This document shows, piece by piece, positions 8,395 through 58,437 of a DNA stretch of 64,000 nt. Each line of letters opens with the position of its first letter. The first letter of the stretch is position 1. Source of the stretch: Astrocystis sublimbata. Its lineage: Eukaryota; Ascomycota; Sordariomycetes; Xylariales; Xylariaceae. The notes under the pieces are model-generated. The model ran no database searches, was not told the origin of the DNA, and saw nothing but the letters and a program-made list of their open reading frames with translations. The DNA is taken from positions 558,001-622,000 of the forward strand of contig JAJNNY010000019.1 of assembly GCA_022453515.1 (NCBI GenBank), written 5' to 3'. The translations under genes and the position numbers were made by a program.

Positions 8395-11105
8395 TGAAAG
8401 AACGACGTAAGTATCCTTACTAAACTAACCGACCTATCATCATCTGTGGGTGGATGATATTCGACTCTCCTTCGTGTATTACAAGTAGCCGTGGTGAGTT
8501 GTAGGCTGCGTTGAGACTCCGATTGAAAAAAAGAAGAAGACGTTAGCGGCTGTCGGTGGAAGCAACCGCCGAGAGAATCACATGCATGAATACCTAAGTA
8601 GTATAAGAGTAATGCCCGTTCCTCAAGCTACTCGATATTATCATGATCTATGAGTATCCCTGTAGGTGTCGTGCTGAAGTAAGCCCATTATCATTCTCCG
8701 TATTCAGAAACATACAGTAATGGCGGCGCTGTCCTGCATTGCAGATACTGTTCTACTCCGAGAAGTTCGAGGGATCTGGGAATACCTAGGTAACGAAGAG
8801 GCGTGACAGATTAGCCATTCAACAGCTCTTGGAACATCTGGTAGTAGCCGCGACAGTGACCATGGCGAGTCTGGTCAGTACTTACCCAGCCTGCATATTC
8901 CAATGCGAAATATCTTGCGTCACTTGTAACACAACATTGTACTGAAAGATTATATAGTCAATGCGCGGGAAAGAGAGGAGTTTTGCGACACTGCGGGTGC
9001 AAAGTCAGAATTTCGGAGGCGAAGTCGAAAACCGAGACCTGCGTTTATCGCCAAGTCCTTTGAAAAACGAAGGCCGCTCTAGCTGACGTGGTCGGCCAAT
9101 GCTGACAGTCTATGCAAAATGCTAATCGAAGTAATTCGCTCGACCTCAAGCCCTTGACATGTTCTGAATAATTCGCGATACTGAACCGAGTTGCCTCTGT
9201 CAGCATTTGACGAGCATGCCAATACTGGCAGCGCCCTATGGCATCGTTCGCTGGATTGCAGTACGTTGGAAGATTTTGAGTTTGTCTCGGACTTTGTGAG
9301 CGTATATGGATGCTGACCCGACGTTTCGATCTTCGTAAATGTGCATTACACAAGGCTACCAAGGCAGCTCGTCTGACACAACTTGAGAAAGCCAATAGGA
9401 AGACGGGAGGGGGTGATGAAAAAACGCACAGGAACGTGGACGAAGTGCTGCGGCATACATCATGGTTGATCATCATCTAGGAGAATAGATGGCGACAACG
9501 CATGACAAACAATTCCCAAAAACAGTTCATCTCAGTACCTACCGCTACCCGGTCATGATACCCAATACCCAATGTCTTGTGTCGTCCGAGGATGCGCGGT
9601 GCCTTCTGACCGGGTAACAAGCCGGTTGCACTGCCAATGAATGCACTTGGCATGTCAATCTCGGCACGACTCAATTGCTTGGTAAGAGTGATACAAAGGA
9701 TATCAACGGCTGTCATCGGATGTTTACTTACATTCAGGTAGTCTCCGCTCGGTTCGCACCCTAGTTTGCAGTTGCTTATGAAGTCATTCTCAGAGCCTAA
9801 AGGTGGAAAGAGAGGATCTCAGGATCAGAGATTCAGAAGCGAGAGAGCTCGAGAGGGCACCTGCAAGGTGTGAGACAGGCATACAGGGCAATTTGGACAA
9901 GCATTGGGTTTGCTTTTAGCCTGCGCAATCCCGCGGCGCGTCTTCTTCCAGGGCCGTTGCCCGCCATGCGACGTGCTCCTCGTAGGGGAACCCCGGGGCT
10001 GATCCCGCTGAGTCCCTCCGCTGTCGTTGCAGTGGGCTGCCTACGCCCAGCCGAGCCAGGCTCGCCAGGCTCTATGATAGATGAGCCCAGAATGCGCTAC
10101 TGGTCCATGAGAGTCCAAGAGCGCTAAAATTAGCAATTGTATATATTGCTTACCCCTCCGGTTTTTGATTGATTGCAGGAGCACACTCAATCCGACTTCA
10201 CCTACATTTCTCGCCTCAATGCCATCTCCTACCTACCTACCTACTACAACCTGCCTGTCCACACGATGATGATCTATTCCACATCACGATGGCCTTTCGG
10301 GCCAAGTGTCTTCTTCTGAATACGACCGTGTTCTAGAATACCGGCACACTCCACCGGTCCAGTCCATTGGCTGACATTTCCCCAAAGGCGAGACGTCCGG
10401 TGTCTTCTGTCCAAGACAATCTTGAACGACCATAAGAAACAATAGTCTCAGTTGCGACTCCGAGATTATGGCCGACTATTCCTGTCGTAGCAGCGGTGGA
10501 ATTACGCTGAAGGAGTGACGGAGCAGCAGCATGTGCTCCTCACGGGTAACACGATGCTGGATTCGTAACAATGACTGGATCCGACCACACGTTGTGTGCA
10601 TTGTCTTTCGACGGGAATGGTGGTTGCCCCCACGACCTTCGGTCGCGCCTATAACAAAAGTATTGTGCAAATTGATTTCCTGGCGCTGTCCGTTTCTAGA
10701 ACGCCTTGCCAATGCGGTGATACATGCCGTCATAGTTTTCCTTCGGGGCCATGAGCTTGTCCAGGGTGACTTTGCAACCCTACCTACCACTCGAGGGCAC
10801 AGCCAAGAAGGCAATTGCACGATTCCGCCGCTGCCCCCGTGGGGGCTTTGGTGTGATGGGGTAGATCAACGGGCCCTTGCCTCATATGTGTGTTGATTCG
10901 AGCACTGGAAAGACTGTCAATCGCCTGATTGTGCCCAGATGCAATGTTGTTTCCCGCCGACTATAAATAGTGCGCCTTGATACCCGTGGCGCATTCCTGA
11001 TCTGTTTGCTATCCCCATCATCATTCCAACATCTCCCCATCTGCTTCTATATAGTCGAGACATCACATCTTTACCCATTGCAACATCAGTGCCCATTGCG
11101 TTATC
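8395..11105. other. Long gene-poor spacer
   Basis: 2.7 kb with no open frame that combines splice signals, codon regularity and recognisable motifs; frames of 80-140 codons on both strands overlap each other and look random. It contains a TACCTAGGTA palindrome at 8783-8792, a CTAC tetranucleotide run near 10230, and the promoter of the secreted-protein gene at its right end. Confidence 0.5.
10962..10970 (+). promoter_or_regulatory. TATA box of the secreted-protein gene
   Basis: TATAAATAG lies about 140 nt before the ATG at 11106, in the right orientation, followed by a pyrimidine-rich leader as is usual for well-expressed fungal genes. Confidence 0.5.
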
Positions 11106-11792
11106 ATGAAGCTGTCTACCGTCATTCTCTCTCTGGGCTGCATCGTCAGCAGTGTCCAGGCTGCTCCTACTGCGGGCCCGGAGCTTTTCAAACTCAAAGT
11201 TGTCTCGTGAGTGTGCCATACGTTCCTCTGAAGATATTTCTATTTAGCTGACGTCTCTGGTGTTCGGTTTTAGTTCCTCGAAAGAGCTCGATGGCCATTA
11301 CCTAGCGTCCAATGCTTCGACCCTTGGCATTTACGGAAGTGAAGACGTCTCCCCTATTCGGGTCTACCAGACTAGCAGCGCAAAGAAAGGCTGCAGCGAA
11401 CTACACACATATCCCATTGGCATTGTTGACCACGCACTCGGTCTCGTTGGCTCCAATGGCCTCATGACCCTTACCGACATGGTGAACCCCTTGGGTGCAA
11501 AGCCAGCAGACGGTCAAGATATGGAGTGGGATTCGTTCCGGATCTCGGACAGCAAGTTGACCAACGACGGCGAAGGCTATGGCACCTGGGTTGTCTTCCC
11601 CACGACCAAATCCAGCTGGACCGTGAAGTGGACAGACGGCAAGTCTTGACCTTCCCATCTGCCAAATAATCCCATGTCGGCATGCATCGACTAATGTTAC
11701 TTTCTTTGACAGGCTCCGCGTTTATGACGACGGACTACATGCCAATCGAGATCATGATGGAGGCAGCGGGTGATGGTCAGAACAATGAATGA
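11106..11792 (+). CDS. Small secreted protein, 181 aa, with a GC-AG intron
   Basis: Three exons (11106-11206, 11274-11638, 11713-11792). The N-terminus MKLSTVILSLGCIVSSVQA is a clear secretion signal with cleavage expected after VQA. The mature protein is about 160 aa, neutral and glycine-rich, with a single conserved-looking cysteine in the centre; I do not recognise a family. Intron 1 is an ordinary GTGAGT-TAG intron. Intron 2 begins with GCAAGT, the consensus for minor GC-AG introns, and ends TTGACAG; using it continues the frame smoothly to a TGA at 11790. Without it the protein would end right after WTDGKS at 11649. A TATA box and pyrimidine-rich leader suggest strong expression. Cell-wall protein or effector-like roles are possible but unsupported. 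Confidence 0.75.
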
Positions 11793-12914
11793 TGGACTGG
11801 CGACCTGAGGGAGCCGAACATTGGCTGACGGCGTAAGCCAAGGAAATTCCGGATGCTGAAATGCGACCTTGGGAGAAGTGTATGATGTGCTCCAAAATTG
11901 TAACGACTGTATTGGTAGATAAAAGTTGATGATCGTTCTGGCTCGTATTGGGCGTCTCTGGTGGTGTGTATCCGCCCTTGAAGTAGGCTGAGAAGTGGTG
12001 CACTGGTAGTAGCGCACTGCTAAAGACAATGTTCCAGCATGTGCGCAAGAATTTTGGCGATATATTTGTCAACTCCTTAACGTCTGGAGCTTGACACGAA
12101 CTCCATAAAGCGACAATTGTGCATCTTATCTTTGCCACGTTTCGGGCACCCTTTCGTGTTAGTGCTGTTACTTACAGAGAAGGATGCCGTGTCACAAAAC
12201 ATGTCCACTCTTTCAACTCCCTCCCCATAACAGGACGTTGCCAAGGCTTATAATTCAAGTAATAATAAGTAGAATCCACGGCTCTAGACTTACTTATATC
12301 ATATCTAATCACCAAACTTAGACCTATTGGTTTTTAAATACTGATTTGAAGATGTTGTTGTCCAGCAATGTAGGTGGCTGTAGCTGGGGGTTGCCTACTA
12401 TTTATTTTTAATTAGAAACTGAAGATGGGAGGTTACATAAGACAGTAAATTTGGCATCAACAACGAGACCTGTTAATTTGCCCTGAAACCAAGTTGCGAC
12501 AATCATCTTTGTAATTGGCCTGCTCGGACTTTGCCCCTCTACACGAAGCTTCAATTGGCCTAGCACTGCCTTCGTTGCTGTCCTGCCTCACCAAGGGGCA
12601 GTCCAGTGGGCCCCATATGCCAGGGTCTGTGTACCTAGGTACTCATTCACGGAAATTCCCATACAATTTGGTCGTTCGAGGCCAATCGTTGATTTCTAGA
12701 GTATATAAAGTTCAAATGCAATATTCAAAATCCAAAGTCGTGTAACCATTCTCGGGGACCAAGAGAACACATTTAGTTACTTTGCCGCGACGCTCCCTAC
12801 AACGCTGGATCAGCTCCACTGACGTCTCCCTCCACCCATTGGCTCATCTTTACCCCGAACATCGAGATCGGTACTACACGCTGAGTCGCAGACTTGAAGA
12901 AGTCGCCCGTTGTC
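11793..12914. other. Intergenic spacer
   Basis: About 1.1 kb, AT-rich around 12240-12440, with a TACCTAGGTA palindrome at 12632-12641. No gene seen; it should hold the promoter of the regulator that starts at 12915. Confidence 0.5.
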
Positions 12915-54625: not shown

Positions 54626-57600
54626 ATGGTGAGCACGAAGAACACAATGGATCGGGGGCTCCGCTCGGCCCTCGGGCTTGCTCAACGTGGTCTCCCCATG
54701 AGGCCCATTTACGGGCACATCTTGACCATCTTTCTCAAGAAACATGACAAAGAAACCCAATCAAGGCTTCTCAAGATAATTCAAGACCTAGACGAGGAGA
54801 TCAACACAAATCATCCCGATGAAGCCTTCATCGCTGGTTTCGCCCCGGCACTCTGGGGTCGATGGGTTGGGCGTGACATCCCTATCTCAAGTACAGTCCT
54901 CCAGCATGGTCTGCAGTTTAAAGATACCGGAGGGGATGTCCTGCTGTACATCAAATCTCGAGACAGAAAGGCAGCAGCAGCAATTGTTGCAACCTTCATC
55001 CGACAGCTGTCTCTACTAGCAAACGACGTGCACACGCTTAAGCTAGGAAAGCGTCCCGATGGCCGAGTGATGGGTGGCCGTTATGTCGATCACATCACCA
55101 ATCCCAACGACCCCATCAGCCTTGCTGAAGATATCTTGGTCGGTGGCAAGGGCCCAGACAGCGGCGCCACCTTCGGCTTTACGCAAAAGTTCACCTTCGA
55201 CTGGCAGGACATCAACTCGCAGCCTGGCGAGGGTCTCGACGCCGTATTCGGTCGGAGACCAAATGGCGAAATCATCTCCCAGCAAGCTTCCCAAGCCGTC
55301 AATGCTCACATCAACTGTGCTCATACTCTGGACCACAACCGTGACCAGAGGAAGCTGCTGCGTCAGGCACTACCTTACGACGAGACCAACCAGCACGCTA
55401 GCCGTGAGGAAGGCCTAATGTTCGTGGCCTTCTGCAACGAGCAGATGCGATTCGAAGAGGTCCTGCAAAGCATGCTGGGCGACCGTCCAGAACGGCCCGT
55501 CGATCGCTTGATGGACTTTGTCCAGGGCGAGGGGGGCGCTTATTGGTACATACCATCAGCCCGTGAGTTAGGTGTCTCGGGTGTTAGGACGGGAGATGAG
55601 TTAGTAAAATTCAGTCTTTTATTCCCTCATTCGGCAAAAGTTCTGCTCTTAAGTACTACATGATTATACATGCACTTGAAACACCTGATTCGTGAGCCAA
55701 AACTTGTCCAAGGACGGCAGATTCTGACTCTTTTTCTCCAGTACCTACGAAGATCCACACTGGAAACTTCGCAGCAAGAACGGGTACCTCTTCTATAACA
55801 CACAGGACTACATGCACCAGATGGCCGAGGGGTACTATGTCGCGGGCGATCAGCCCAGTGTGCGCGTTCTAAGTCTCTTGTCGAGATCGTTCAATCATTG
55901 GCGAGACGGGTGGATGAAGGGTGGGCATTTCCCAGCACTGCCTCACTTGAAGGACCTGCTACATTACGCCAAGGAGGACTCCGTGCCCACTTCGATTCTT
56001 GAGCGCAAGGGGTTGGCAAACTATATCACCCTTGCCAACCTCCTCTCCTCGCCAGACTCCAAAGTCGTTAGAGACACCGGCTTGGCTCGGATCACGGCCA
56101 AAGAACTGGTCGTTGGTGCGATTCCAGACTTCACGCTCGGCAGAGGAAGGAGGTGATCCCCTATCTGACCGAGGATGAGACTATGGCCGCATGGCTGAAG
56201 TGTCAACTCAGCGAAGGGTCGGCCATGGGACATATCGTCCCCAATTTCCAGACTCTCGTCGATCAGGGGCTCGGAGCTATGATCGCAGACCTTGATCAAA
56301 AGGCCGGAGAGGCGAGAAAGCAGCAAGACAGCACAGAGATAGTGTCGTTCTACTCATCTGCTAGCAAGTCTCTCGTAGGTGTCCAGGTCTATCTCGAGAA
56401 CTGGGCGGAGATTGCTCGCAAAGCACATGCACAAGCTACCGACGCAGACGATGTAGAGAACATGGCTGACGTCGAGAAACGCCTCAGACGACTCATTCGC
56501 TCACCACCCACCAGCTTCCAAGATGCAGTGCAGCTGATTTTCTCCATGCATGCGTGTCTCCATCTCGTCGGCGAGCTCACGGCCTTTGGTCGAATCGACC
56601 AGATCCTCTGGCCCTTCCTTGAAAAGGACCTGAAGGACGGCAAGATCACTCTCGATTTTGCCCAGGACATCATCGACTGTCTGTGGATCAAGATCGGCGA
56701 GAATGCCTTCGTCAACCGCGCCTTCATCCACGACTATCGCAGCTACGGCACTACTTCTGTCAACGGTATGGGTGGCAACTTCCCGCAGGGCGGTGGTATC
56801 AATCAATGGGTCCAGCAGATTACCATCGGCGGGTATAAGCCGACGGACTCGGAGACTCCCGAGGGGGGCGCCAACCCCGTCACCCTGCTCTGTCTCAAAG
56901 CAGCCCGCCGCATCCCTGTCAACGCCCCAAGCGTCTCTATGCGTTTGTATAAGGGAATCGGAAAGGAATACATTGACGAGGCTGCGGCGTCCATTCTCTC
57001 CGGCGGCGCGCACCCTGCGCTATACAACGACGACAAGCTCTGCGAGGGCCTCTTCCGCGCGGGCGAGACCGTCACGCGGGCATGGTCGCGCCATTATTCT
57101 GCCGACGGATGTTTTGAGCCGATGTTAAGCGGCGCCTCCGAGTTCACGTTCGCCAGCGTCGAGCCCATGGCGGCGCTGGAGCAGACGCTGAACCAAGGCT
57201 CGACCTACGGCGCCGGATCGGTGCACCTGCGTGGTCTGAAGCAGACCTTCCGCGCCCCTCCAGCCTCCACGATCGAGACCTTTGAGCAGCTGCAGGAGTT
57301 GTTCCTCCAGCAGCTCGCTTGGCTCATCCAGCGGAGCTATCACTTCGTTCTGAGCGCTTACGGCAACTACGAGGGGATCTGCCCTTCGCCTCTGCTGTCT
57401 GCGATGCTGGATGGTTGCGTCGAGTCTGGTCGTGATCTGACCGCCGGTGGTGCAAAGTTCCACATGGGTGCGTATCAACCTTCCCCCACCTCAAAAAGAT
57501 ATCCCCCTCCTATTTTCGATTCACAATCCCGCCAAACAAGATCTAACATAGACTGTTCGCAGTCGCACCCCTCTGCATCGGCGTAGCCAACACAATCGAC

Positions 57601-58437
57601 TCGCTCTACGCAATCAAGAAGCTCGTCTTCGACCCGGCCTCGGCGCGCGTGACTCTCCCCGAGCTCGTGCGCTGCCTCATCTGCGACTGGGGCTTCAACA
57701 TAATCGAGCCGTTCCAGGACAAGAGTCTCGGCCCCGCCAACGCCGCCGCCAACGCCGTGCGCTACCAGGAGCTGCGCGACGTCGCCCTCGCCCTGCCCAA
57801 GTGGGCGAGCGGGAAGCGCGATGACGAGGTCAAGGAGCTCGGGCGATGGTTCTTCGACAACATGGTGCGGATGTGCGTCGACGCCGTGCGCCAGCCGACG
57901 GGCCTGAAGCCCGTGCTGGACAGCATCTACGCCAAGCATGGGCCGGACTTTGAGTTCGTGGTGACGCCCGGCGTGGGCACCTTTGAGGGCTTTGTGGGCG
58001 ACGGCCTGACGTGCGGCGCCTCCGCCGATGGCCGCCGCAGCGGGATGCCCATCGCGTCCGACATGTCACCCGTGCCGGCGTACAACAACATATACAAAGC
58101 CATGTCCAGCTACCGGGACGACAACGTGGAGATCGGCATCTCCAACGCCGCTCCTGTGGATATGAACATCCCCGAGGACTTCCCCCTCGAGCACCTGAAG
58201 GAGTTCATCACTGCGTTTTCGGAAGGCAGCGTAGGCGGGAATCTGCTGACGCTGACGTGCGCCGATCCCGAAACGTACAAAGGCGCCTCGGAGGACCCGG
58301 AGAAATATAACTTAGTCCGAGTCCGCATGGGCGGGTGGTCTGAGTTCTATCCTACCATGTTCCCTGACTACCAGGAACAGCAGCGGCGCCGACCATATTT
58401 TGATGTGAAAGAAACAACGAATGGTGTTGAGGTTTGA
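54626..58437 (+). CDS. DyP-type heme peroxidase fused to a glycyl radical enzyme
   Basis: About 1,200 aa. Exons: 54626-55562, 55742-~56150, ~56150-57467, 57563-58437. The N-terminal ~315 residues are a dye-decolourising peroxidase: distal Asp155 in GGRYVDHITNP, proximal His228 in NAHINCAH, distal Arg246 in LLRQALPY. The C-terminal ~780 residues are a glycyl radical enzyme of the pyruvate formate-lyase/glycerol dehydratase class: N-terminal ITAKELVVGAIPDF, GRIDQILWPFLEKDL, catalytic Cys in DGCFEP (57110-57112) with glutamate two residues on, and the glycyl radical loop RMGGW with Gly at 58333-58335. So both catalytic centres are intact. Two joins are one base out: the GTGAGT donor at 55563 with acceptor before 55742, and GGAAGG near 56146. 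No activase gene is near. Reaction unknown. Confidence 0.8.
55563..55741 (+). other. Intron 1 of the DyP-glycyl radical gene with a phase mismatch
   Basis: The strong donor GTGAGT after CCATCAGCCC leaves one base, while acceptor CTCCAG before TACCTACGAAG needs two, so the frame is short by one. Weak GTTAGG or GTTAGT donors 4 and 37 nt downstream would restore frame. An extra C in the CCC run would also do so. Confidence 0.5.

Follow-up and report, generated by a model that had tools for sequence, protein, structure and literature searches.

What is a heme peroxidase doing in the same polypeptide as a glycyl radical enzyme (GRE) in an ascomycete fungus? The question is raised by a plus-strand gene at positions 54626–58437 of a 64,000-nucleotide stretch of the genome of Astrocystis sublimbata (Xylariaceae) (contig JAJNNY010000019.1, positions 558,001–622,000; hereafter the window), where a first-pass annotation had noticed a DyP domain continuing into a complete GRE. 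The fusion is real: Pfam domains of both kinds are found in one gene, and the public annotation also gives a single fused protein (P0181, 1173 aa). Its setting is wider than one fungus, and the same pairing of peroxidase and GRE recurs in bacteria with a constancy that is described below. We propose that the protein may represent a self-activating, peroxide-driven enzyme of the glycyl radical type, in which the DyP would replace the radical S-adenosylmethionine (SAM) activase in aerobes, a reading that we judge to be as apt to be right as wrong.

The gene comprises three exons, delimited by translation and by agreement with homologs. Exon 1 (54626–55599) runs from the start codon to the donor site and encodes the DyP domain, which matches Dyp_perox_C (PF20628) with E 1.3e-22 and TIGR01413 with 128 bits (cut-off 100.5). 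It is followed by a predicted intron of 142 nt (55600–55741, GTTAGT..CAG). The first-pass annotation had drawn this intron as 55563–55741, and its start has been corrected: a donor at 55563 breaks the frame and removes residues kept by relatives, and the exon extends through ELGVSGVRTGD, in frame, as in Xylaria curta P0076. Exon 2 (55742–57467) encodes the GRE half from its N-terminal region through most of the pyruvate formate lyase (PFL)-like domain; a second predicted intron of 95 nt (57468–57562, GTGCGT..CAG) separates it from exon 3 (57563–58437), which carries the C-terminal part of the GRE with the glycyl loop and ends in the stop codon (58435–58437). Both introns are placed by frame and homolog agreement. 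The PFL-like profile PF02901 recognizes the GRE half in two pieces, 56138–57484 (E 1.2e-84) and 57547–58437 (E 7.9e-14), and a profile search with PF02901 gave no second match in the fungal genome.

In an alignment that includes 73 DyPs from related loci, the three heme-pocket residues picked out at first pass occupy catalytic columns. The proximal heme ligand, His228 (codon 55307–55309, plus strand as are all codons given here), is His in 73/73 of the related DyPs, distal Arg246 (55361–55363) is Arg in 69/73, and the column of distal Asp155 (55088–55090) contains Asp in 35, Glu in 34, and His in 4 of the 73. With these three residues, its profile matches, and DypB among its best matches to solved structures, the domain has the attributes of a B-type DyP, and the window protein is predicted to be a heme-binding peroxidase. 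The DyP motif GxxDG reads GRYVDH at this position in the window, with the Asp kept and the final Gly replaced by His, and GRYLDG in L001, a bacterial relative from Andreprevotia lacus whose fusion gene lies at 8750–12253 of its locus. As compared with DypB, DtpB, and YfeX, which we take to be B-type DyPs, the domains described here differ in being fused to a GRE, in the His that follows the catalytic Asp in the window, and in the change of that Asp to Glu in nearly half of the related DyPs. The distal heme pockets of the group are unusually variable; besides the frequent Glu, there are four DyPs (L010, L011, L014, and L075) that have His in place of the Asp and have also lost the Arg.

In the GRE half, the catalytic Cys of GCFEP (57110–57112) and the Glu of this CxE motif (57116–57118) are conserved in 80/80 related loci, the Gly pair of RMGGW (58330–58335) in 78/78 loci that reach that far, and the His of GHV also in 78/78. 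The second Gly of RMGGW corresponds to the loop Gly of glycerol dehydratase when L001 is aligned with 1r8w. The barrel fold with an active-site Cys and the C-terminal glycyl loop with a conserved Gly, two features of a GRE, are both present. The Cys and loop recognized at first pass are confirmed: wherever a related locus extends over these positions, the Cys, Glu, and both Gly are unchanged. The domain search proposed with the first-pass annotation found the DyP and PFL-like families in the window and gave no match for the third, Gly_radical (PF01228), which is weakly over its cut-off in 9 related DyP-GREs.

The related loci were obtained by scanning one genome for each bacterial and archaeal species with an alignment restricted to the GRE half; of 81 confirmed relatives, selected by two short GRE patterns, the top 80 were used. 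Among these 80 loci, 61 encode full DyP-GRE fusions in a single open reading frame (ORF), and one further fusion is ended by a contig edge (L076). Three are split genes (L032, L058, and L079) in which the DyP ORF adjoins or overlaps that of the GRE. In a further 12 loci the GRE is unfused and the next gene downstream, in the same orientation, encodes a DyP; L054, L068, and L073 could not be evaluated because of contig ends. A DyP is therefore present in cis, fused to the GRE or directly adjoining it, in 77/77 evaluable loci. Measured from the end of the GRE stop codon, the DyP gene of the 12 operons begins at −10 to +23 nt; its start was taken as the first Met in 11 of them and as a chosen Met in L060. 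The clade extends over ten bacterial phyla, and many of its hosts, such as Acinetobacter, Pedobacter, Sphingomonas, Ensifer, and Massilia, are aerobes. In fungi, 50 fungal-named proteins with the fusion, the window's own included, are among the best 120 of 159 matches, and all 50 contain both Pfam domains.

The peroxidases of the fused and unfused loci belong to different DyP subfamilies. The fused DyPs resemble DypB-type structures (the window and L042 were compared), and for the separate DyP of L057 the structure matches are to the EfeB type (E 1.5e-28) and to DtpA (E 1.3e-15). The L057 type is thus like the A-type DyPs, EfeB and DtpA, in its structure match but differs from them in that its gene starts within −10 to +23 nt of a GRE stop codon. 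None of the 744 cross-pairs of fused and separate DyPs match at E ≤ 1e-5 (best, 1.2e-5), whereas within the two groups all pairs do (3782/3782 and 132/132); the fused pieces included the linker, by which their scores are raised. Since both groups are DyPs, the fused B-type and separate A-type-like proteins are distant kin, and the GRE clade either acquired its partner on two occasions or exchanged it once.

A tree of the GRE half was calculated from 86 rows, with 14 of the 80 loci (truncated or near-copies) omitted and eight PF01228-type GREs as the outgroup, by a quick method with branch support from the Shimodaira–Hasegawa-like approximate likelihood ratio test (SH-aLRT). The 13 unfused rows, including L073, form one clade (support 99), and the fused bacterial and fungal rows form the other (98). 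Within the latter, 12 fungal rows are a single clade (94) that is joined at 100 to eight proteobacterial rows, comprising seven from four betaproteobacterial families and Pseudomonas cichorii. A phylogeny of this half had been suggested at first pass, and it shows the fungal genes alongside fusions from proteobacteria. Because the deeper branches are bacterial, we infer that transfer was from bacteria to fungi, with proteobacteria as the probable donors.

Few of the hosts searched have a recognizable GRE activase. TIGR02494, the GRE-activase model, was run on 37 and then on 12 more host genomes, mostly those of named isolates from the 80 loci. It exceeds its cut-off in 3/49 (G018, G022, and G025) and gives strong matches below it in G001 and G002. 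There are six strong matches in these five genomes, two of them in G025, and each is directly beside another GRE, five of which are PFL and one YjjI. Strong matches to PF01228 (E < 1e-10) occur in exactly the same five genomes and in none of the 12 further ones, where the best TIGR02494 score is 42 bits; the co-occurrence of activase and PF01228 has a one-sided p of 2.3e-6 in the first 37 genomes. By these two models, an intact GRE activase and a canonical GRE are both absent from 44/49 genomes. Eight lower TIGR02494 matches are, from their motif context, three MoaA-like proteins, four AmmeMemoRadiSam-like proteins, and one remnant. The remnant of a GRE activase (L096, 73.6 bits) lacks CX3CX2C and is found in a genome, G015, that has a DyP-GRE. 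At the loci themselves, no dedicated activase was found within flanks of up to 10 kb at any of the 80. ORFs with CX3CX2C are nearby in 5/80 and represent no recurring family; the sole activase near a locus, that of L045, is beside a PFL and 7.7 kb from the DyP-GRE.

The fungal genome has no match to TIGR02494. It has at least seven matches to the radical-SAM family PF04055 in a search that did not consider introns, for which the best models are MoaA, LipA, viperin, Elp3, TYW1, and BioB; one protein, L089 (G000:C146), matches none of these well. L089 scores well below the cut-offs of both NrdG2 (E 6.5e-10) and PFLA (E 3.4e-7) and is presumably PflX-like. Its relatives are widespread in Ascomycota, as seen among the best 120 of 7998 matches, and several are annotated as PFL activating enzymes, a name that was probably carried over by homology. 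The genome also encodes a viperin-like radical-SAM protein, L085 (G000:C124), that matches TIGR04278 with E 2e-52 over the matched stretch. With no dedicated activase at the 80 loci, no intact one in 44/49 host genomes, and no TIGR02494 match in the fungus, where L089 is still a candidate, we have not assigned the enzyme to the canonical GREs activated by radical SAM.

Both halves can be compared with known structures through an AlphaFold2 model of the bacterial fusion L001, calculated from a 52-sequence alignment (pLDDT 88.4; predicted template modeling score, pTM, 0.90). Residues 3–302 match DyPs, and residues from about 342 to 1167 match GRE dehydratases and CutC. Model confidence is below 50 at the glycyl loop (1139–1143) and at residues 635–641; these low values may reflect mobility or only a shallow alignment. 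Near the start of the GRE half, Phe360 and Trp363 are invariant in 65/65 rows of the clade and are replaced by Arg and Met in 12/12 nearby PF01228-type rows. Identity between the clade GREs and glycerol dehydratase (1r8w), 1,2-propanediol dehydratase (9rco), and CutC is about 20%. The clade loop is RMGGW in place of the RVAGY of glycyl radical dehydratases and lyases, GGW being common to the nearest PF01228-type GREs, and an alignment of L001 with 1r8w shows no conservation of the segments GHSISPARFDQ and TEGWHD, so the substrate probably differs from those of known GRE dehydratases and lyases. The clade GREs also differ from these enzymes in having no activase partner.

The architecture itself has been reported. 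The first-pass annotation had allowed that it might already be known, and the available text of the 2016 genome paper on Chaetomium cochliodes (PMC5041501) bears this out: it describes a DyP-B/PFL fusion, groups ascomycete fusions with proteobacterial ones with transfer from proteobacteria, gives 3-fold induction of the Chaetomium gene by H2O2 and 18.5-fold induction by peroxyacetic acid, and calls the significance of the fusion elusive. The window gene has the published arrangement, with an N-terminal DyP-B and a C-terminal PFL-like domain in one gene (with one frame break here), and groups with proteobacterial fusions in our GRE tree. As to the putative PFL activase that was published as lying elsewhere in the genome, the window's fungus has no TIGR02494 match and one PflX-like gene, L089. 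As compared with the available text of PMC5041501, the unfused sister group with its different DyP and the lack of a GRE activase in most of the hosts searched are new. No other paper on the DyP-GRE fusion was found in a search of one open-access library, which covers few subscription journals.

A mechanism can be suggested on the basis of these comparisons. Peroxide would oxidize the DyP heme to a ferryl/porphyrin-radical state, and the oxidized heme, directly or by way of Tyr or Trp radicals of the protein, would take a hydrogen atom or an electron from the GRE half. This would place a radical either on the RMGGW loop (glycyl) or on the GCxEP Cys (thiyl); the thiyl could then start radical chemistry of the dehydratase or lyase type on a small polar substrate. 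With the radical-SAM activating enzyme replaced by a DyP, such chemistry would become possible in aerobes. We infer the transfer of a radical from DyP to GRE, the residue that bears it, and the class of reaction from sequence comparison. The two folds (in the L001 model), both catalytic sets, the constant linkage, the two DyP subfamilies, and the lack of an intact GRE activase in most hosts are observed; because all of the radical residues are kept, a peroxidase from either of two subfamilies is always in cis, and GRE activases are few, the most economical reading is that the DyP, with peroxide, takes over the role of the activase.

Several points weigh against self-activation. We know of no GRE that is activated without radical SAM, and glycyl radicals are cleaved by oxygen. 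PF01228 does not recognize the window protein, and the distal Asp and Arg are both gone in 4/73 DyPs. The linkage and the conservation are also compatible with a protective or a sequential-reaction role. The host genomes are drafts for which completeness is not given, and the flank is shorter than 5 kb on one side in 19/80 loci. The fungal L089, a candidate activator in trans, is annotated "pyruvate formate lyase activating enzyme," and in the available text of PMC5041501 a putative radical-SAM PFL activase elsewhere in the genome is taken as the activator of the fusion.

Of the other explanations, the one that survives best concerns the window copy and is compatible with all of the family-level explanations: it may be a broken allele (pseudogene), inactive in this isolate, with relatives intact. 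We lean somewhat against this but regard it as a serious possibility. In exon 2, close to where the GRE domain begins, the frame is broken by a net one base relative to relatives; the break is at the conserved VGAIPDFTLGRGKE block (about 56129–56150, plus strand); the flanking ORFs, 55728–56156 and 56072–57586, are in different frames, whereas relatives such as Xylaria cubensis P0158 have a frame that is open across this position. The public model P0181 bridges the break only with a 32-nt "intron" (56112–56143) that deletes the conserved block. A short intron was rejected as the cause of the frame change because the block would be lost and fungal introns are not plausibly as short as 32 nt. 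The GRE that was called complete at first pass has its catalytic residues, but its frame is broken in this assembly. However, neither side of the break contains a further stop or frame break. Identity to P0158 is 85% on one side and 88% on the other, and the branch length in the GRE tree (0.094) is near that of this intact relative (0.079), so that any decay would be recent. We consider one assembly error no less probable than a pseudogene. The copy is thus a null allele or the product of an assembly error, and intact fungal copies exist.

That the DyP is protective only, clearing peroxide from around an oxygen-sensitive GRE whose activator would be a radical-SAM enzyme acting in trans and missed by the GRE-activase model, is in our view unlikely. 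The PflX-like L089 would be such an enzyme in the fungus, and the available text of PMC5041501, with its assumed trans activase and an expression of the Chaetomium fusion that rises with peroxide, is in keeping with this role. However, the PflX-like protein is present (among the best 120 of 7998 matches) in Neurospora crassa and Colletotrichum, which are absent from the best 120 of 159 fusion relatives; being found in ascomycetes outside those listed relatives, it does not look dedicated to the fusion. Moreover, the only GRE activase at the 80 bacterial loci is the one that accompanies the PFL of L045, and protection leaves the absence of an activase from 44/49 genomes unexplained. The first-pass annotation had offered protection from peroxide and a new way of forming the radical as its two options; the 77/77 DyP linkage, the two DyP subfamilies, and the 44/49 genomes without an intact activase favor the new route to the radical by comparison, which is not proof, and make protection the less favored.

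Slightly less likely again is that the two halves catalyze successive or separate steps, with the GRE fold binding or channeling the DyP substrate through its Cys/Glu pocket and forming no glycyl radical. In its favor, PF01228 fails to reach its cut-off in the window and barely does so in nine relatives, and a two-step pathway would likewise accommodate one GRE with DyPs of two subfamilies. However, across ten phyla no locus that covers them has changed the Cys, Glu, or Gly-Gly, and a non-radical scaffold is not expected to keep the glycine loop. The proposal that the fusion is an artefact of chance or annotation was rejected in view of at least 50 fungal-named proteins and the 61 single-ORF bacterial fusions.

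Several other genes are found near the GRE-DyP loci. A protein with the motif SFYFFDxDDN is present in 15/80, a PLD-domain protein in 11/80, and a cytidine-deaminase-like protein in 5/80, in combinations that vary, for example among L057, L060, L063, L071, L074, and the fused L011 and L075. A DUF2608-type protein is directly beside the fusion in 7/80 loci (L010, L013, L015, L016, L017, L019, and L077), and some of these fusions also have a PF04185-type phosphoesterase. Phosphodiesterase- and phosphatase-type neighbors recur, but they differ between groups, and for this reason no substrate is claimed. A reading of the unfused operon as a defence system was rejected; PADLOC, run on seven proteins, gave weak matches in two PLD-domain proteins only.

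To our knowledge, every GRE whose activation is understood needs an oxygen-sensitive radical-SAM activase, and this is one reason why GRE chemistry is seen as anaerobic. We put forward tentatively, at a little short of even confidence, that the loci described here could represent a whole class of enzymes of the glycyl radical type, present in at least ten bacterial phyla and in ascomycetes, that functions aerobically and owes its activation to peroxide and a heme peroxidase in place of a radical-SAM enzyme, and for which two DyP subfamilies have been recruited. If this is true, the peroxide-driven route would break the radical-SAM rule for GREs, and aerobes would gain access to difficult dehydrations and to C-N or C-C cleavages. 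It would also provide biotechnology with a simpler, SAM-free GRE. A fusion whose significance was termed elusive in 2016, in the available text of PMC5041501, is thereby turned into a directly testable proposal.

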